Shown piece by piece: positions 14,955 to 26,911 of a stretch of DNA of 51,648 nt; the stretch's first letter is position 1, and each line of letters begins with the position of its first letter. The notes under the pieces are model-generated. The model did no database searches. It saw only the letters and a list, made by a program, of their open reading frames with translations, and had not been told where the DNA came from. The DNA is taken from positions 1-51,648 of the forward strand of contig JAUNGU010000006.1 in assembly GCA_030524315.1 (NCBI GenBank), read 5' to 3'. The DNA is from Peptococcaceae bacterium (GTDB lineage: Bacteria; Bacillota; Peptococcia; Peptococcales; Peptococcaceae). The translations under genes and the position numbers were made by a program.

Positions 14955-17900
14955 TTACGCTAAAACGTTCTTGACATAGCGCTCGAGCATAGCTGCTACC
15001 TGTGCTCTCGTCGCATTGCCCTTCGGTGCCAATTCGCTCTCGCTCATGCCATTCACAATGCCTGCGGCGTTGGCCCACTGCATGGCGTCGGTCGCCCAGC
15101 CGCTGATGCTTCCAGCGTCGCTGTAGCTCGACAGATCATTGCGAGCGCTGGTGTCGACGCCCTTGTACTCGGCGACATTGTAGAGAATCGCGGCGAGCTG
15201 CTCGCGCGTGATGCTATCGGTTGGGCCGAAGCGTTCGCTGCTGTAGCCGCTGACAATGCCATTCTGGCGCGCCCAGTAGACGGCGTTGCCGTAGTAGGCA
15301 GATGCGTCAACGTCGGCAAATGGATAGCCGAGGTTCTCGTTACTGAGATCTGGCTCACCCTCCATGCGGTAGAGAATGGCGACGATCATGCCGCGGGTCG
15401 TCGTGAGATTCGGCGAGAAGGTCGTCGTGCTCGTGCCAGTCATGAGGCCTTCGTTGTAGACAAAGCGCACAGGGTCGATGTACCACGCGCCCTCGCTGAC
15501 GTCGGTGAATGGGAGATCAGTTGGTTCTGGCTCTTCGCCTGCTTCGCGATAGGTGACGGTGATCGTGACCTTGCCGCTCGGCTGGGTGAAAGTGTAGGTG
15601 CCATCAGAATTTTTCTCGACGTCGACGGTCTTGCCGTTCTTATCGGTGACGGTGATTTTGTCGACCTCGTAGCCGTCATCAGGATCCGGCGTGATGGTCA
15701 CAGTCTCGCCCTGCTTTGGTCGCGCTGGCGAGGTGGTGACGCTGCCGTTTTCTGGCTCCGTCACCGTTGGCGGATAGGTCGGTGGCGTGATCGTGCCACC
15801 GCCGGAGCTTGGGCGATTAGTCGCCGTCAAGGTGACACATGCTTCTACCGGATTGTAAATAGCATCGCCCGCTTTCTCAGCTTTGACGGTAAATTCACCG
15901 ATCTCTGTCACTGTCACCTTGCCATCCGTATCAATCGTCGCCACATCGCCTTCGACCGACCACTTGACGTCGCCTGTGACAGAACCGCCGTCGGTGCTCA
16001 GTGCGAAGCTGTCACCCTTATAGATAGTGGCTGGCACATTCTCAATGGTAAGTGCTTCCTGATCCAGCTTAGTCACGGTCAAATCTGCATGGCCTGTGCT
16101 TGCCTGCAATTTATCACCATTTATGTCTGTCGTACCGCCAAAATCAGCAGTGATGGTGTATGGCGTCTCATTTGGTGTCCAGTTGTCGCCTGTAAGTTTA
16201 ATAGTAACTTTGGCGGTGTATGTGCCATCGTTGTCATTGGTCACGTTCTCTGATGCCAACAGCGTGCCATCGGTATCGCCCAGGTAGAAATTCACCGTAT
16301 CCTCATCGGCCGACAGGCTGTTGGTCGTCGCTTGTTTTTTCTGTATCGTGGCAACGACGGTCACCTCATCACCGTAAGCAACACTGGTCACTGTTTCGCC
16401 ATTCTTCTCGAAATGTACGCCAACACGGCTTGCATGATGCACCTCACCAGATCCGTCAATGCTACCAACAATGGTGCCATTGTTAATGATGGTACCCTCA
16501 TTGGTGAGGGTTACACCATCTGGAATAGTGAGGGTTTGTCCTTCGCCAATGGTCAGGATCTGCTCGCTAGTAATGGTGAATGCTTCTGCGAGGGTGACGT
16601 TGCCATAGACCTGGCCGTCATTACCGCCGATGAAGAAAATACCGTTCCAATCATCTTTTTTACTTTCGTCTCTGATCGAGCTGGTGAAAATCACGGCATT
16701 ACTTTTAGCGCTGGTGGAAAAATTACCTTTACTGGTGCCCCAACCGCTACCAATACCTGCGCCATCTTTTCCCCCAGTCGCCGTGACAAAGCCACCGTTA
16801 ATAATGACAGTGCCGCCACCACCATGATAGCCGCCGCCAATACCAGCGCCATCTTCACCGCCCGTCGCTGTGACAGCGCCACCATTGATGGTGATCTTGC
16901 CTGCGTCGCCACTGTTACCACCGATACCCGCATTAGGTTCTTCCACATTCTGTGCAATCAGCTGGCCTTTTTGTGTGCCTGTGCTCTGCCCGTAGATGGT
17001 GAGGCTATTACCACCCTGCACCTGGATGCCACCGTTGACCGTCAATTTGGCGTCATCTGCGAGGATCAAATAAACATCACCCGTGACGGTGAGTCGTTTA
17101 TTGAGGGTGACATCACTGGCAACCACGTACCAGCCATTGCTCAAAGCGGTCGTCAGTGGTGTGACGGGGATTGGTGGATGCTCTGTGAGCTGTTCAATCC
17201 CACTCTCGTCAAGATAGGTGATAGTCTTCCCACTTATAACCACTTTGCCATCGATTTCATCTGACACCATTCCACCATCCAGCTGATAGATGGTGCCCTG
17301 ATTATCTATATGCCCGGACAATGCCCCAGAAACTAATATACTGCCTTTATTGACAAGGGTAACGCCATCCTTGACAGAAAGGCTTTTATCCGCACCAACG
17401 GTCAGCGTCTGATCGCTGGCGAGGGTGAAATTATCCGCCAACTCGACATTGCCATACACTTCACCATCGTTGCTACCAATAAAGAATACGCCACTCCAGT
17501 TGGCTTCTTCGTTTCGGTTGTTGATAGAGTCGGTAATAATCACTCCATGGCCATTCTCCCCGGTGGAAAGGGGGGCACCACTAGCACTTCCACTACCACT
17601 GCCAATGCCATAGCCACCACCGCGAATGGCTTCAACAATGCCACCATTGATAATGACCGTCCCACCAGATCCAGAATAGCCACCGCCGATGCCTGCGGCG
17701 CCCCTGCCACCCGTGGCTTTGACACTACCACGATTGATAATGATTGTACCAGCGCTACTCTTATAACCACCGCCAATACCTGCGCCGTCCTCTCCACCGG
17801 TGGCCTCGATGTGACCGCCGTTGATGGTAATATTGCCAGCGATATTATTGGCTCTACATCCAAGGCCTGCTTCTGCTGTAGCAACATTCCGTACAATCAG

Positions 17901-18293
17901 GCTCCCATCTCCCTCGTGCTGACCATAAATGGTGAGGTTATTACCTTGATACAGGCTGATACCGCCATTAACAGTGAGGCTCGCGTCATCGGCAAGGATT
18001 AGGTGGACAGCGCCGCTAATATTGATACGGCGATCAACAGTGATACCATCCGCTGTTGGTTCGACGACATACCAGCCTGATTGCAATGTGTAGCTCTTAT
18101 TTTCCAGATACTCCTTCGTCAACGACGTATATTCCCCTGTGGATTTGATGCGTGTCTCCCAATTTTGACCATTTTCGTCACAATAGAGATACTCAACCTC
18201 GCCCTCCGCCGCCCAGCTCGGCAGGGCGGTCAGCGGCAATAGGCTCAGCACCATCGCCAACATGGCAACAATGGCTGTGATTTTGCGTTTCAT
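14955..18293 (-). CDS. Large SLH-anchored surface protein with duplicated beta-helix region
   Basis: A 1112-residue exported protein. Residues 1-29 are a signal peptide ending SWA. Two related segments (about 50-315 and 370-620) carry short glycine-rich repeats such as ITINGG and GAGIGGG, typical of right-handed beta-helix surface proteins. An Ig-like region follows (about 620-850), then a bacterial repeat domain (YEVDKITVTDKNGKTV near 885). The last 186 residues form three SLH domains that bind secondary cell wall polymer: LPFTDVSEGAWY, YPFADVDASAYY, and a third ending VAAMLERYVKNVLA. The ATG at 18293 is preferred to one three codons upstream because of spacing from GTGAG. Ligand unknown; adhesion or glycan binding is likely. 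Expression may pass through an upstream leader terminator. Confidence 0.85.
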   Translation of the reverse strand: MKRKITAIVAMLAMVLSLLPLTALPSWAAEGEVEYLYCDENGQNWETRIKSTGEYTSLTKEYLENKSYTLQSGWYVVEPTADGITVDRRINISGAVHLILADDASLTVNGGISLYQGNNLTIYGQHEGDGSLIVRNVATAEAGLGCRANNIAGNITINGGHIEATGGEDGAGIGGGYKSSAGTIIINRGSVKATGGRGAAGIGGGYSGSGGTVIINGGIVEAIRGGGYGIGSGSGSASGAPLSTGENGHGVIITDSINNRNEEANWSGVFFIGSNDGEVYGNVELADNFTLASDQTLTVGADKSLSVKDGVTLVNKGSILVSGALSGHIDNQGTIYQLDGGMVSDEIDGKVVISGKTITYLDESGIEQLTEHPPIPVTPLTTALSNGWYVVASDVTLNKRLTVTGDVYLILADDAKLTVNGGIQVQGGNSLTIYGQSTGTQKGQLIAQNVEEPNAGIGGNSGDAGKITINGGAVTATGGEDGAGIGGGYHGGGGTVIINGGFVTATGGKDGAGIGSGWGTSKGNFSTSAKSNAVIFTSSIRDESKKDDWNGIFFIGGNDGQVYGNVTLAEAFTITSEQILTIGEGQTLTIPDGVTLTNEGTIINNGTIVGSIDGSGEVHHASRVGVHFEKNGETVTSVAYGDEVTVVATIQKKQATTNSLSADEDTVNFYLGDTDGTLLASENVTNDNDGTYTAKVTIKLTGDNWTPNETPYTITADFGGTTDINGDKLQASTGHADLTVTKLDQEALTIENVPATIYKGDSFALSTDGGSVTGDVKWSVEGDVATIDTDGKVTVTEIGEFTVKAEKAGDAIYNPVEACVTLTATNRPSSGGGTITPPTYPPTVTEPENGSVTTSPARPKQGETVTITPDPDDGYEVDKITVTDKNGKTVDVEKNSDGTYTFTQPSGKVTITVTYREAGEEPEPTDLPFTDVSEGAWYIDPVRFVYNEGLMTGTSTTTFSPNLTTTRGMIVAILYRMEGEPDLSNENLGYPFADVDASAYYGNAVYWARQNGIVSGYSSERFGPTDSITREQLAAILYNVAEYKGVDTSARNDLSSYSDAGSISGWATDAMQWANAAGIVNGMSESELAPKGNATRAQVAAMLERYVKNVLA
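16430..18082 (-). repeat. Tandem duplication of the beta-helix module inside the surface-protein gene
   Basis: Copy one spans roughly 17285-18082 and copy two 16430-17140. Both begin with GWYVV, continue through LILADDA, LTVNGGI and LTIYGQ, the GEDGAGIGGGY motif, then FFIGxNDGxVYGNV and DGVTL. The order and spacing of these landmarks are the same, showing an internal duplication that has since diverged. Confidence 0.75.
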
Positions 18294-18311
18294 TACGATC
18301 ATCTCACTTTC

Positions 18312-20272: not shown

Positions 20273-21376
20273 ATGAAAGCGCATATTTTATTGGTGGATG
20301 ATGAGCAGGCGCTCACGGATCTTTTGAGCGTCTATCTGGAGAACGATGGCTTTGTGGTGCATAGCTGTGCCAGCGGCAGCGAGGCGCTGCGCATCCTTGA
20401 AAAAGCGCCCATCGCTTTGGCGATTTTGGATGTGATGCTACCGGATATGTCCGGCTTTGACATCTGCCGCCATATTCGCACGTCGCATTTTTTCCCGGTC
20501 ATTATGCTCACCGCCAAAATTGACGCTGGTGACAAAATTTTCGGCCTCACCGTCGGCGCCGATGACTATATCACCAAGCCCTTCAATCCGCTGGAGGTGG
20601 TGGCGCGGGTCAAGACCCAGCTACGTCGCGCCAGAGAATACAATCAACCGGAGCGCAAGCCGCGCGACGAAATCGATATTCGCGGGCTGGTCATCAACAA
20701 CAGCCGCCACCGCTGCACCCTCTACGGCGAGGAAATCACGCTGACGCCACTGTCCTCGGTCATTGGCTATCTGACGCTGCTCGCTGACGAGCCGTCGCTG
20801 CCTGTCGAGGCGCGCCAGCGCTACCTGCGCACCACTTGCGCCAAGGCGGAGCGGCTCGACGGGCTGATCAATGAATTTTTTGAGATCACGCGCTTCAATC
20901 TCGCCCACATGCCCTTGGAATACCATACCATCGACGGCGCGCGACTCTTGGAGCAGCTTGTCTTTGAATTTCAGCCACAGCTGGCAGAGAAAAACCTGCA
21001 TTGCGATTTACACGCGCCGGAGACGCTGTCCCTCTGCTGCGATCCCGACAAGCTCCAGCGCGTCTTTGACAATCTCCTGCGCAACGCCGTCCTCTACAGC
21101 GATCCTGACACGACCCTCACGATTGTTGTACGCAAAGAGCCGACAAACGCTGTGTTCACCTTTACAAACGCGGGCGCAACCATTCCACCGGAGCGCTTGG
21201 CGCATCTTTTTGACCAATTTTTCCGACTGGATACGGCGCGCAGCTCCTCCGGCGGCGCGGGCTTGGGGCTTGCCATTGCGCGCCAGATTGTGCGCCAGCA
21301 CGGCGGCGACATCACTGCCGCAAGCGCCTCGGGCACTGTCACCTTCACCGTCACCCTACCGTTTGACCAGCCGTAG
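20273..21376 (+). CDS. VanR-VanS hybrid: response regulator receiver fused to a histidine kinase without H-box
   Basis: One 367-codon frame joins two proteins. Residues 1-120 are a VanR-type receiver with DDE near 9-11, phospho-acceptor Asp53 in ILDVM, and Lys102 in ITKPFNPLEVVARV. Residues 132-159 are the first strands of the OmpR-type winged helix, ending at ITLTP. From residue 160 the sequence switches to VanS: LSSVIGYLTLLADEP, then LINEFFEITRFNL, the N-box FDNLLRNAVLYS near 265, and SGGAGLGLAIARQIVRQHGG near 330. Both the DNA-recognition helix and the phosphorylatable His of the kinase are missing, as is the sensor. VanR normally reads LTP then TEF; VanS reads H-D-x-K-T-P then LTS, so the fusion point is the shared TP (20744-20749). 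The ATG follows GAGGTG. Confidence 0.88.
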   Translation: MKAHILLVDDEQALTDLLSVYLENDGFVVHSCASGSEALRILEKAPIALAILDVMLPDMSGFDICRHIRTSHFFPVIMLTAKIDAGDKIFGLTVGADDYITKPFNPLEVVARVKTQLRRAREYNQPERKPRDEIDIRGLVINNSRHRCTLYGEEITLTPLSSVIGYLTLLADEPSLPVEARQRYLRTTCAKAERLDGLINEFFEITRFNLAHMPLEYHTIDGARLLEQLVFEFQPQLAEKNLHCDLHAPETLSLCCDPDKLQRVFDNLLRNAVLYSDPDTTLTIVVRKEPTNAVFTFTNAGATIPPERLAHLFDQFFRLDTARSSSGGAGLGLAIARQIVRQHGGDITAASASGTVTFTVTLPFDQP

Positions 21377-21441
21377 GAAAATCGTAAGAAATTCCGTAGG
21401 AAATAGTCATCTTCTCGTGGCACCCTTCGCAAACAAAAAAC

Positions 21442-21485
21442 GCCATCATTTTGTAGAATCAAGGTACAAAATGATGGCATTTTTT
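21442..21485 (+). terminator. Terminator between the VanR-VanS hybrid and vanY
   Basis: A 14-base perfect stem, GCCATCATTTTGTA and its complement, around a 9-base loop, followed by ATTTTTT. The T-run directly abuts the vanY ribosome binding site AGGAGGG (21486-21492). An A-run precedes the stem, so it could also act on the opposite strand. Confidence 0.85.
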
Positions 21486-21499
21486 AGGAGGGATTGCCT

Positions 21500-22512: not shown

Positions 22513-23274
22513 TTAGAGCACCAGACTCATCGAGTCGGTGATTTGTTTACGCAGCTCCAAGAATTCATGCCCTGTAAGATTTCTTGGTCGTGGCAAATCG
22601 ATGGTGTACTCGCTCGCTAAATGACTTGGCAGCTTCCCGTCGAGAACGATGATACGGTCTGCGAGGTAGATGGCCTCGTCAATATTGGATGTAACGAAGA
22701 GAATGGTACGTTTTTCTTCCTGCCATACGCGCTCGATTTCCGTTTCCATGAGGATACGGGTCTGGGCGTCCAGCTGGCCGAAAGGCTCGTCGAGGATCAA
22801 GAGGGTTGGTTCGTTGACGTAGGCACGGGCGATACCAACACGCTGCTTCATCCCACCGGAGAGCTGGTTTGGATAGCTGTTTTCAAAGCCCTTGAGACCG
22901 ACGAGGTCGATGTATTTTTGAGCCATTTTGCGGCGCTCGGTTTTGCCGATGCCCTTGAGCTTTGGCCCCATTTCGACATTGCCCATGACGGTCTTCCAGA
23001 AAAACAGGGTGTAGCGCTGGAATACAAAGCCGACCTGGTCACTTGGCCCGTCCACTTCTTCACCGTTAACGTAGACGTTGCCGGTGGTTGGCGCTTCAAA
23101 GCCTGCAATCAGTCGCATCAGGGTGCTTTTGCCAGATTGGCCAGGCCCCAGAATGACGACAAATTCGTTTTCCTTTGCGTGAAAGTTCATGGTCGACAAG
23201 ACCTTCTTGTCACCAAATTCTTTGGATATATCCACGCACTCAATTATATTGCGTTGTTTCTCGTCCATGGACAT
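22513..23274 (-). CDS. ABC importer ATPase A (SsuB/TauB-like) lacking the switch histidine
   Basis: A 253-residue nucleotide-binding subunit of a nitrate/sulfonate/taurine-type ABC importer. Walker A is GPGQSGKST (43-51), the signature LSGGMKQR (138-145) is intact, and Walker B is LLILDEP with Glu163. The switch region reads FVTSNIDEA, so the usual His of T-H-N/D is Ser196. Its partner ATPase in the same operon has the opposite combination, a normal His but a degraded signature. The ATG at 23274 follows AAAGGGGG and lies 31 bases inside the permease gene upstream. Substrate unknown. Confidence 0.88.
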   Translation of the reverse strand: MSMDEKQRNIIECVDISKEFGDKKVLSTMNFHAKENEFVVILGPGQSGKSTLMRLIAGFEAPTTGNVYVNGEEVDGPSDQVGFVFQRYTLFFWKTVMGNVEMGPKLKGIGKTERRKMAQKYIDLVGLKGFENSYPNQLSGGMKQRVGIARAYVNEPTLLILDEPFGQLDAQTRILMETEIERVWQEEKRTILFVTSNIDEAIYLADRIIVLDGKLPSHLASEYTIDLPRPRNLTGHEFLELRKQITDSMSLVL

Positions 23275-24059
23275 AGCCCCCTTTCAATCAATGTCAGTGC
23301 CAGAGAGGTCAGGAAGGAGACCAAGCAGATGGCCAGCATCCCTGCAATACACATCGCCGTATTGTCCACACGCATGCCCTGGTTGATAACAAAGCCGAGG
23401 CCGGAGCGTGCGCCGACGAGTTCCGCTGCAACCACGCAGGTCCAGGATGTGGACAGCGCAATCTGCAGCCCTGCGAAAATCGCTGGGATACAGGATGGTG
23501 CAGTGACTTGGATGTGTTCCTGCCAATAGGTGGCCCCGAGGTTACGAATGCAGTCGTAGAGCTCTGGGTCAACGAGACGAATCCCGTTGTAGGAGTTCAG
23601 AATCAGTGGCACGAGCGCACCAATGAAGATGATGAAGACCTTGGAAGGTTCACCGATACCAAACCAGAGAATCGCAATGGAGATCCAGGCGATAGGTGGC
23701 ATTGGTTTGAAGAATTCAAAGATTGGACGGACAATCGCGTTGGCGGTTTTGTTGAAGCCCATCAATACCCCAAGTGGAATACCGATGACGGCTGCCATCA
23801 AAAAGGCGATCATAACGCGGCGGAAGGAGATCCAGGTGTGCATGATCAGCGTGTAACCGGCCAATCGGGTTTGCAACATGCTAAAGAGCTCCGAGATAAC
23901 CTCCCATGGACGTGGCATCATCTGTGCGTCGCCAACGACGACAATCAGGTCCCAGATGCCCAAAAAGAGTACGATCGATACAACATTCAACACGCGCTTG
24001 TTGCGCAAGGCTTTTTGGAATATATTACCGCCTTTTACTTCAGAAATTGTTTCACTCAT
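23244..24059 (-). CDS. ABC importer permease B (SsuC/TauC-like)
   Basis: A 271-residue permease of the BPD-type family with about six membrane helices. The cytoplasmic EAA-type loop, LYDCIRNLGATYWQEHIQV (about residue 175), would contact an ATPase. It is clearly related to permease A in the next gene upstream (shared FKPMPPIAW / VRPIPSVAW region and TCxVAAEL/M near the end) but well diverged. The ATG at 24059 follows a purine-rich GGGGGTG. It overlaps the ATPase A gene by 31 bases and starts 15 bases after permease A. Confidence 0.9.
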   Translation of the reverse strand: MSETISEVKGGNIFQKALRNKRVLNVVSIVLFLGIWDLIVVVGDAQMMPRPWEVISELFSMLQTRLAGYTLIMHTWISFRRVMIAFLMAAVIGIPLGVLMGFNKTANAIVRPIFEFFKPMPPIAWISIAILWFGIGEPSKVFIIFIGALVPLILNSYNGIRLVDPELYDCIRNLGATYWQEHIQVTAPSCIPAIFAGLQIALSTSWTCVVAAELVGARSGLGFVINQGMRVDNTAMCIAGMLAICLVSFLTSLALTLIERGLCPWTRNNAI

Positions 24060-24074
24060 AATTAGACACCCCCC

Positions 24075-24884
24075 TTATTGTCCTTTTCTGCTGCCCTTGA
24101 CGAGCTGCTTTTCGATGATCCCAACGACGATGGTGATGACAACCCCTGTCAGCGCCGTCAGTACCATCCCGAGGATGATCATGTCAGGCATCAGGAGACG
24201 ACGACCCATTTCGATGAAGAAGCCCAGACCGGCGTTGGCACCGACCATTTCGGCTGCAACCAAGCAGGTCCATGCAGTTGCCAGCGCAACCTGCAAGCCA
24301 CCAAATACCATTGGCAGGGCCGATGGGATACAAATATTTTTGAAGATTTCCCAGTTATCTGCACCGTAGGTTTTCGCCATGCGGATGTAGGTCGGGTTGG
24401 TCATTTTGACACCGGAGCAGGAGTTGATGACACAAGGCACCAAGGCCCCGATGAAGATGATGAACACCTTACTAAAGAACCCAGTCCCGAACCAGATGAT
24501 GCAGAGTGGAATCCAAGCAACCGACGGAATAGGACGGACAATTTCGAAGATCGGGCGAACCAGACCATCAAAGGCAATGAACCAGCCCATCGCCAGCCCC
24601 AAAGGAATCCCAATCACCAGCGCCAGAATGTAGCCTGCGAGGGCTTCCTTCAAGCTCAGGAAAATATGTCCCCAAATAATGGTACCATCCGGATTCGCAT
24701 TGGATAACTTATATACGAAGAGCTCGATGACCTGCGTTGGTGATGCCAATAGGTGAGGAGAAACCCATTCCATGCGCACAACCAATTCCCAGAAGCCCAA
24801 GAACAAGCAGACGGAAATCAAGGAAATGATCATGTACGTACTTTGTTTACGCTCGGTGCGTTTTAACTTTTTCGCACTAGCCAT
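24075..24884 (-). CDS. ABC importer permease A (SsuC/TauC-like)
   Basis: A 269-residue BPD-type permease with about six helices and the EAA-type loop IRMAKTYGADNWEIFKNICI near residue 175, followed by TCLVAAEMVGANAGLG. I chose the ATG at 24884 because AGGAGGTG lies 7 bases upstream; a longer frame upstream would run through the binding site. It follows the binding-protein gene, with an intervening hairpin, and precedes permease B. Two distinct permeases in one importer predict a heterodimeric membrane domain. Confidence 0.9.
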   Translation of the reverse strand: MASAKKLKRTERKQSTYMIISLISVCLFLGFWELVVRMEWVSPHLLASPTQVIELFVYKLSNANPDGTIIWGHIFLSLKEALAGYILALVIGIPLGLAMGWFIAFDGLVRPIFEIVRPIPSVAWIPLCIIWFGTGFFSKVFIIFIGALVPCVINSCSGVKMTNPTYIRMAKTYGADNWEIFKNICIPSALPMVFGGLQVALATAWTCLVAAEMVGANAGLGFFIEMGRRLLMPDMIILGMVLTALTGVVITIVVGIIEKQLVKGSRKGQ

Positions 24885-24939
24885 ATAATTACACCTCCTG
24901 TGGACCCTGTCCTCCCTTTGGAGGAGCGATCCGACATTC

Positions 24940-24976
24940 AATAATAAAAGGGGGTCAATGAATTTTTAGACCCCCT
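24940..24976 (-). terminator. Intercistronic hairpin after the substrate-binding protein
   Basis: On the minus strand AGGGGGTC pairs with GACCCCCT around a 12-base loop, followed by TTTTATTATT. It lies between the binding-protein stop and permease A. Such hairpins commonly stabilise or partly terminate messages so that binding protein is made in excess. Confidence 0.75.
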
Positions 24977-24993
24977 CTATTTAACATTGTTGA

Positions 24994-26106
24994 TTATTTA
25001 GCTTTGTCTGCTTTAATTTCAATGGCTTTGTCGAGGAAGGAAGAATCAATGCAGTAGCCCTTGTCTTCAAGCTGCTGCTTTTCTTCTGCAGTGTACTGTT
25101 CCTGAGAAACGAAGTATTCTGCAGTGCCTTGCAATGCCTTCAGCAGGTCGCCGCTTTCCAACAATTCTTTCTGATCTTCAAGGGAGTAGATGTCATGGGC
25201 TTCAATGTCCAGTGCTGCATCTTCTTCAGTAATATTCATTGCTGCCCAATCAGAGAAGAAGGCCGAGATGTCTGGAGCGAGGTCCTTACCCTCTTCGTTG
25301 TACTTGGTAGCGCCTTCGTCAAACATTGCCAGCAGGCTTGCAATGGCGTCAGGATTTTCTTCTGCAAGCTTAGGATCGGCTACCCAAAGCATCATGCAGT
25401 CTGCGCCAACCTGTTCAGCATTCGCAACTTCTTTCCAGCCCTTTTCGATACCGGTGTAAAGGAATGGTGCCCAGAGTACGAGGTAATCCCCTTCGCCACT
25501 TTCAAAGGCAGCGATGGCCTGAGCCTGTTCGAGGTTCTTGACGGTAACGTCAGATTCCTTGAGGCCGAGGGTTTCGAGGTACTTCGACAAGGTGTAGGTA
25601 CCGGTGGAGACGGTGGTGGTCAAGATGGTCTTGCCCTTCATGTCTTCTGCCTTACCAAAGGTGCCGTTGTCGTTTTCGGTATCAAATACAGCGTCGTCTT
25701 CACGCGCGAGAATTGCATTGGCACGAGATTCGTTGGAGGATACACCGACGATTGGGGTATCATAACGCAGCGCACTCATCAGTGTAGGTACAGAGCCGTT
25801 ACTCATGATGGCCAGCTGGTTGGCTGGTACGGTCTGGACCATAGGCATCCCGGAGTCAAAATACTGCATGGTCAGGTCGATGCCGTATTTTTCCTGGATG
25901 GATGGATCAGTGTTGGTCGCATAATACGCGGACCACGCATCGATCTGCCCCTGGAAACCGCCTTCTACGGAGAGCACTTCGCCTTCAGCTGAGGAGGAAC
26001 CACCGCCGCTGCCGCTGCCACCGCCGCAACCAGCGAGCGTCCCAAGCATTGCTGCAGACATTACCACCGCAGTGGCAACTTTCCAAGTTTTTTTGTGACG
26101 TTTCAT
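24994..26106 (-). CDS. ABC importer substrate-binding lipoprotein (NMT1/SsuA-like)
   Basis: A 370-residue extracellular binding protein. The signal peptide ends with a lipobox LAGC, Cys27 being the lipidated residue, followed by a Gly/Ser-rich tether. The mature part resembles the NMT1/TauA/SsuA fold (for example LAIMSNGSVPTLMSALRYD and KGKTILTTTVSTGTYTLSKY). The ligand cannot be told from sequence; taurine, aliphatic sulfonates, aromatic acids or pyrimidine precursors are all possible for the family. I chose the ATG at 26106; a GTG three codons earlier overlaps the GGGAGTG binding site. It lies between ATPase B and the permeases. Confidence 0.88.
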   Translation of the reverse strand: MKRHKKTWKVATAVVMSAAMLGTLAGCGGGSGSGGGSSSAEGEVLSVEGGFQGQIDAWSAYYATNTDPSIQEKYGIDLTMQYFDSGMPMVQTVPANQLAIMSNGSVPTLMSALRYDTPIVGVSSNESRANAILAREDDAVFDTENDNGTFGKAEDMKGKTILTTTVSTGTYTLSKYLETLGLKESDVTVKNLEQAQAIAAFESGEGDYLVLWAPFLYTGIEKGWKEVANAEQVGADCMMLWVADPKLAEENPDAIASLLAMFDEGATKYNEEGKDLAPDISAFFSDWAAMNITEEDAALDIEAHDIYSLEDQKELLESGDLLKALQGTAEYFVSQEQYTAEEKQQLEDKGYCIDSSFLDKAIEIKADKAK

Positions 26107-26158
26107 ATGAAACACACTCCCTTCGTTTTTTACCTAGTATGATTTTGCATCAAATGCT

Positions 26159-26911
26159 TTACCACCACTTGATTGCATCGGTAACATAATTTCGCAACTC
26201 GACAAAGTCATCAGCCAGCGCGTTACGCGGTCTTGGCAGATTGATCGGAATCGATTCCTTGATGGTGGTTGGCTTGTTGGTCAATACCAGGATACGTTCC
26301 GCAATGTAGACGGCTTCCTCGACGTTGTGGGTAATAAAAATAACCGTGTTGTTGAACTCCTGCCAAATGCGAACCAGCTCGTCTTCGAGATAGAAGCGGA
26401 GCTTGACGTCCAGCTGGCCGTAAGGCTCGTCCATGAGCAAGAGGTCAGGGTTGACGGCGAAGGCTCTGGCAATCGCCACGCGCTGCTCCATACTGGAGGA
26501 GATCTGCGCCGGATAGAGATCCTGGGTCTGAGTCAGACCGACGATTTCCATAACCTCTTGAACCTTTGCTTCAATTTCATCCTTTGGCCATTTTTTGACC
26601 TCCATGCCGTAAGAAATGTTTTCTTTGACGGTACGCCAAGGCAGGCAGGATGGTTCTTGGAATACAAACGAGATATTGTGCTTCTTTGGATCGGCTGGCT
26701 CCCCGTCGATGAGGATTTCCCCTTCACTCGGTACATAGAGGGTCGACAAGAGGTTCAAAAATGTTGTCTTCCCGCACCCGGTAGGTCCTACAATAACCAG
26801 GAACTCGCCTTTCTTGACTTCAAAGTTGATGTCGTTCAATACCAGCAAATCGCCGAAGCGTTTTGTGAGATGGTTGACGACGACTTTGTTAGGTCTTACA
26901 TCTTCTCCCAT
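26159..26911 (-). CDS. ABC importer ATPase B with degenerate signature motif
   Basis: A 250-residue SsuB/TauB-like ATPase and first gene of the importer operon. Walker A GPTGCGKTT (42-50), Walker B LLLMDEP with Glu162 and the switch His195 in FITHNVEEA are all normal. The signature is ISSSMEQR (137-144) in place of LSGGQ/M-QR, losing both glycines. Together with ATPase A (normal signature, no His) this predicts an asymmetric ATPase pair. The C-terminal INLPRPRN segment matches ATPase A. The ATG follows GGAAGTGG. A near-consensus promoter lies 160 bases upstream. Confidence 0.88.
   Translation of the reverse strand: MGEDVRPNKVVVNHLTKRFGDLLVLNDINFEVKKGEFLVIVGPTGCGKTTFLNLLSTLYVPSEGEILIDGEPADPKKHNISFVFQEPSCLPWRTVKENISYGMEVKKWPKDEIEAKVQEVMEIVGLTQTQDLYPAQISSSMEQRVAIARAFAVNPDLLLMDEPYGQLDVKLRFYLEDELVRIWQEFNNTVIFITHNVEEAVYIAERILVLTNKPTTIKESIPINLPRPRNALADDFVELRNYVTDAIKWW

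Follow-up and report, generated by a model that had tools for sequence, protein, structure and literature searches.

Known vanRSY cassettes and related systems

Cassettes comprising vanR, vanS and vanY without a resistance ligase have been described in the Bacillus cereus group, Paenibacillus and Neobacillus (PMC11273654). Among the loci compared here the same gene order is seen in four, namely those of Ruminococcus callidus (L011), a member of the Lachnospiraceae (L019), a genome of the same class as the one studied (L095), and an Enterococcus faecalis plasmid record (L120). The locus analyzed here lies in a 51,648-nucleotide stretch of a Peptococcaceae draft genome (the window), and shares with these cassettes the order vanR, vanS, vanY, the VanR boxes at the vanS stop ahead of vanY, and proteins that are about 44-60% identical. 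It differs in that vanR and vanS, which are two full-length genes in these cassettes, are represented by a single fused frame. The VanRG/PYG system of the vanG operon is comparable in having three 12-bp direct repeats, (T/C)CGTANGAAA(T/A)T, before vanY, but VanRG, unlike the fusion, has a DNA-binding domain, and that operon also includes a vanU repressor (PMC4405338). In vancomycin-variable enterococci, as in the window, the two-component system has been deleted and its target genes left behind; there, however, an IS1216 insertion took vanR and most of vanS with no resulting fusion, whereas the window displays a short-repeat-type deletion and one open frame (PMC10965585). No VanR-VanS fusion was found in the open-access literature. 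The locus offers a clean natural case of a two-component system collapsed to one frame between codons common to both genes, with the target promoter intact.

Architecture of the fused frame

The translation of positions 20273-21376 is a single open frame in which a VanR part is followed by a VanS part, with the following constituents:

20273..21376, + strand: fused vanR'-'vanS frame, 367 aa (translation, Pfam, NCBIfam)
20273..20611, + strand: VanR receiver domain, Asp53 and its companion residues intact (Pfam PF00072, residues 5-113; conserved columns)
20612..20743, + strand: VanR linker and N-terminal winged-helix strands, recognition helices absent (alignment to intact VanR)
20744..20749, + strand: junction ACGCCA, Thr158-Pro159, common to VanR LTP and VanS KTP
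20750..20920, + strand: VanS DHp remnant past the H-box, no His (PF00512 from profile position 15; alignment)
21041..21367, + strand: VanS ATP-binding domain, boxes intact (PF02518, residues 257-365; invariant columns; model pLDDT)

The Response_reg match is strong (9e-28) and the receiver retains Asp53, Asp9, Asp10, Thr80 and Lys102, the constellation of a receiver with a phosphorylatable aspartate. The NCBIfam VanR models, 226-232 positions long, cover the fusion from residue 1 to about 166 and give out near model position 161-174, about 60 residues short of their ends. The winged-helix DNA-binding domain with its recognition helix is absent; the VanR part stops at LTP and no Trans_reg_C match was recovered with Pfam or NCBIfam. 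On the kinase side, the HisKA match (residues 158-207, 2e-6) begins only at profile position 15, implying that the H-box is missing, and the VanS model covers residues 158-363 from model position 87, the membrane sensor segments being absent from the fused frame. The HATPase_c match (2e-25), together with the invariant columns, shows that the N, G1, F and G2 boxes of the ATP-binding domain are all present. At the junction the protein reads ...YGEEITLTP-LSSVIGYL..., such that EITLTP stands in place of the VanS AHDLKTP; the VanS His lies four residues before the Thr of HDLKT, and the equivalent residue of the fusion is Glu154. These observations bear out the earlier note, which had described a VanR receiver and first strands running to ITLTP and directly into the VanS LSSVIGYL, had placed the fusion point at a shared Thr-Pro near ACGCC (20744-20749), and had proposed the loss of the recognition helices and the phospho-accepting His, with an Asp53 receiver, a dimerisation remnant and an intact ATP-binding domain remaining.

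Alignment depth for the structure model was confined to the kinase part, two plasmid-record rows having been left out of the alignment, and the low-confidence receiver part was left uninterpreted. The predicted ATP-binding domain is confident (pLDDT mostly 80-95 outside the ATP lid). At low confidence, the model has strands up to residue 156 and a short helix from 159, suggesting that most of DHp helix 1 is missing. The REC-HisKA-HATPase_c hybrid kinases, typified by the NCBIfam EpsF and HrmK models, resemble the fusion in that a single polypeptide holds both a receiver and kinase parts. These kinases keep the phospho-accepting His, whereas the fusion has lost it and is VanR/VanS in sequence; without a functional His acceptor alongside the receiver in one chain, it falls outside the hybrid histidine kinases. 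Judging from the residues retained and lost, the fusion would most likely have lost both DNA-binding and kinase function.

Related loci and the search for other fusions

The comparison set, a type of analysis that the earlier note had suggested, comprised 24 loci with related VanR and VanS, of which two (C22 and C87) are other loci of the same genome and the rest come from outside the genus. All 24 have two full-length genes, usually overlapping or abutting, and carry the segment missing here. Their VanR strands end in LTPxEFxIL or near variants (one has LTRTEF) and their VanS motif is HDLKTP, HDIKTP or HD(L/I)RTP. The Thr-Pro codons of VanR and VanS are separated by 661-910 bp, mostly 664-729, and most of these spacings equal 1 modulo 3 because vanR and vanS lie in different frames. 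The fusion cannot be attributed to chance, given that its halves show about 42-60% identity to VanR and VanS from many genomes and that no other examined locus is fused.

At the search thresholds applied, a fused copy was likewise lacking among 46 genomes of the class and a sample of 398 from the phylum; relatives with a conserved fusion that keeps a His acceptor, which the earlier note had considered, were not encountered in any of these sets. Apparent conserved fusions in four loci (L015, L016, L036 and L061), suggested by single-frame BLAST joins, proved to be alignments running into the kinase upstream regions of intact pairs or of other kinases; in L015 and L016 the response regulator sits in a separate frame from the kinase. 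The lost VanR DNA-binding segment was found nowhere else in the draft genome, with a query from an intact relative matching only other regulators, the best at 59% (C22) and 52%.

Origin of the fusion

The fusion of VanR to VanS is confirmed as an observation in this draft genome. We consider it probable that it represents a deletion-fused vanRSY cassette in which regulator function was lost and vanY left at a basal level. The starting state would have been a vanR-vanS-vanY cassette of the type that many Firmicutes carry with no accompanying resistance ligase. One deletion, estimated from the relatives at about 0.66-0.73 kb (roughly 0.7 kb), would have joined the VanR LTP codons to the VanS KTP codons, with loss of the winged helix from VanR and of the sensor, H-box and membrane segments from VanS. 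By its sequence, the product is one soluble polypeptide, whose receiver could still accept phosphate, for example from acetyl phosphate, but would not bind DNA, and whose ATP-binding part would be left with no His to phosphorylate. The pairing of Thr-Pro codons would preserve the frame automatically, and the open frame is thus no evidence of selection.

The earlier note had explained the fusion by an in-frame deletion through short homology. The deletion at the shared Thr-Pro is upheld by relatives that are unfused and possess the segment, while a role for microhomology at these codons is plausible rather than proven. The bases common to both Thr-Pro sites in relatives number 2 to 8, with some loci sharing 5-8 (ACACCGCT in L011, GACGCCG in L015) and others 2-3. 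Other registers within the same genes share as many bases as the Thr-Pro register, making microhomology compatible with the deletion without being diagnostic of it, and ruling out a microhomology unique to these codons.

Fate of the fused protein

Of the columns conserved in at least 90% of the relatives, 1 of 55 in the receiver half and 1 of 54 in the kinase half differ in the fusion, a number as low as that of intact pairs. Given this absence of decay, the deletion may be recent, the sequence may still be under constraint, or the allele may not have become fixed; constraint on the fused product would be compatible with the undecayed halves and boxes. The fused gene is most likely an inactive remnant, that is a broken regulator, rather than a new type of signalling protein. 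The proposal of the earlier note that it might be a new single-polypeptide receiver-ATPase found no positive support, given that none of the other genomes searched has this architecture and that there is no His acceptor. Were the fusion to prove fixed and conserved, a single step would have produced a new regulator.

It is possible to conceive of the protein as a phosphate sink or a partner-poisoning protein. Its retention as a soluble modulator, with the receiver competing for phosphate or the dimerisation/ATPase part pairing with the VanS paralogues (C22 and C87) and poisoning or tuning them, appears unlikely. The open frame, the intact receiver and ATP-binding residues with their few deviations, and the presence of two intact VanRS-like pairs in the genome are in its favor; but the in-frame state follows from codon pairing and needs no selection, the loss of most of DHp helix 1 in the low-confidence model may weaken pairing, and no other genome searched has such a protein. 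A more specific version, in which selection has kept a soluble receiver/ATPase, created by the deletion and lacking both a DNA-binding domain and a His acceptor, as a phosphate sink or as a dominant-negative partner of a VanS paralogue, is less probable still.

Slightly less likely than the soluble modulator is an assembly or strain-mixture artefact, whereby vanR and vanS are intact in the organism itself and assembly closed the contig over the missing segment. The draft state of the genome (124 contigs, 87% complete) and the resemblance of the retained halves and boxes to a functioning system would allow for this, but assembly k-mers are much longer than the shared sequence of about 6-8 bp, and the missing DNA-binding domain is on no other contig. 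More generally, a regulator that looks "fused" in a draft genome may be a scar, which calls for caution.

VanR boxes and the expected expression of vanY

Downstream of the kinase part the following features are seen:

21371..21405, + strand: three directly repeated VanR boxes, at 21371 CCGTAGGAAAAT, 21382 TCGTAAGAAATT and 21394 CCGTAGGAAATA, the first overlapping the fusion stop codon
21500..22198, + strand: vanY, D,D-carboxypeptidase family, intact (PF02557, 2e-31; VanY-B/G model)

Two of the boxes match the published consensus (PMC4405338) exactly and one has a single mismatch, with a spacing of 11-12 bp. Nowhere else in the genome are two such repeats arranged in tandem, and this array also contains two of the five exact single boxes of the whole genome; none was detected in the region upstream of the fusion. 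The array is found at the same place in L120 (TTGTAGGAAAATCGTAAGAAATT), in a close version in L095 and in weaker form in L011 and L019. By sequence comparison, the boxes at the fusion stop codon leading into vanY, matching those of intact vanRSY loci, are new here. The search for a D-Ala-D-Lac/D-Ser resistance ligase in the draft genome, which is 87% complete, returned only weak ATP-grasp matches (best 47 bits), none convincing.

VanR is an activator in characterized systems (PMC8541618, PMC10965585). Given this and the VanR-box promoter that vanY has of its own, loss of VanR should leave vanY basal and uninduced; the option raised in the earlier note, a dead regulator that frees vanY from control, is therefore probably wrong in direction. 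Constitutive vanY expression following regulator loss from the same deletion is very improbable: VanS loss alone does give constitutive expression in VanB enterococci, via VanR charged by acetyl phosphate (PMC8541618), but this route requires a VanR with the DNA-binding domain lost here, vanA plasmids without vanR and most of vanS confer no resistance and remain silent until the promoter mutates (PMC10965585), and the vanY promoter region retains VanR boxes, with no sigma-70-like promoter found there by scanning. With its cognate activator gone, vanY would show only basal expression, barring recognition of the boxes by a paralogous VanR.

The genome has two more intact VanRS-like pairs (G000:C22:7191-9018 and G000:C87:1711-3526), with no vanY within the stretches read. 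Rescue of vanY by these VanRs through cross-talk is possible but not favored, because their recognition helices (NTIAVHIRRLREK and NSISVHIRNLREK) differ from the NTVMAHIxRLREK of vanRSY-type VanR.

The dyad before vanY and neighboring genes

A further element lies between the boxes and the vanY start:

21436..21487, unstranded: perfect 14-bp dyad with A/T flanks (fold z = -4)

It is unique in the genome, which rules out a repeat element. In each of the five vanRSY loci a dyad or hairpin, unrelated in sequence from one locus to the next, separates vanY from the VanR boxes, with fold z of -4.0 in the window, -3.2 in L011, -7.1 in L019, -2.5 in L095 and -1.9 in L120. In most of the five, a -10-like hexamer is seen in or near the dyad loop, with the ribosome site at or past the 3' arm. 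The dyad could act as an operator that covers the promoter, or else form a hairpin in the leader. As these loci show, vanRSY cassettes have VanR boxes directly at the stop codon of vanS and a dyad ahead of vanY, an arrangement open to testing.

Elsewhere in the window, positions 14955-18302 (- strand) encode a 1115-aa S-layer homology (SLH) protein with beta-helix repeats, likely a surface protein, and positions 22513-26911 (- strand) contain ABC importer genes for an NMT1-like binding protein, two permeases and two ATPases.
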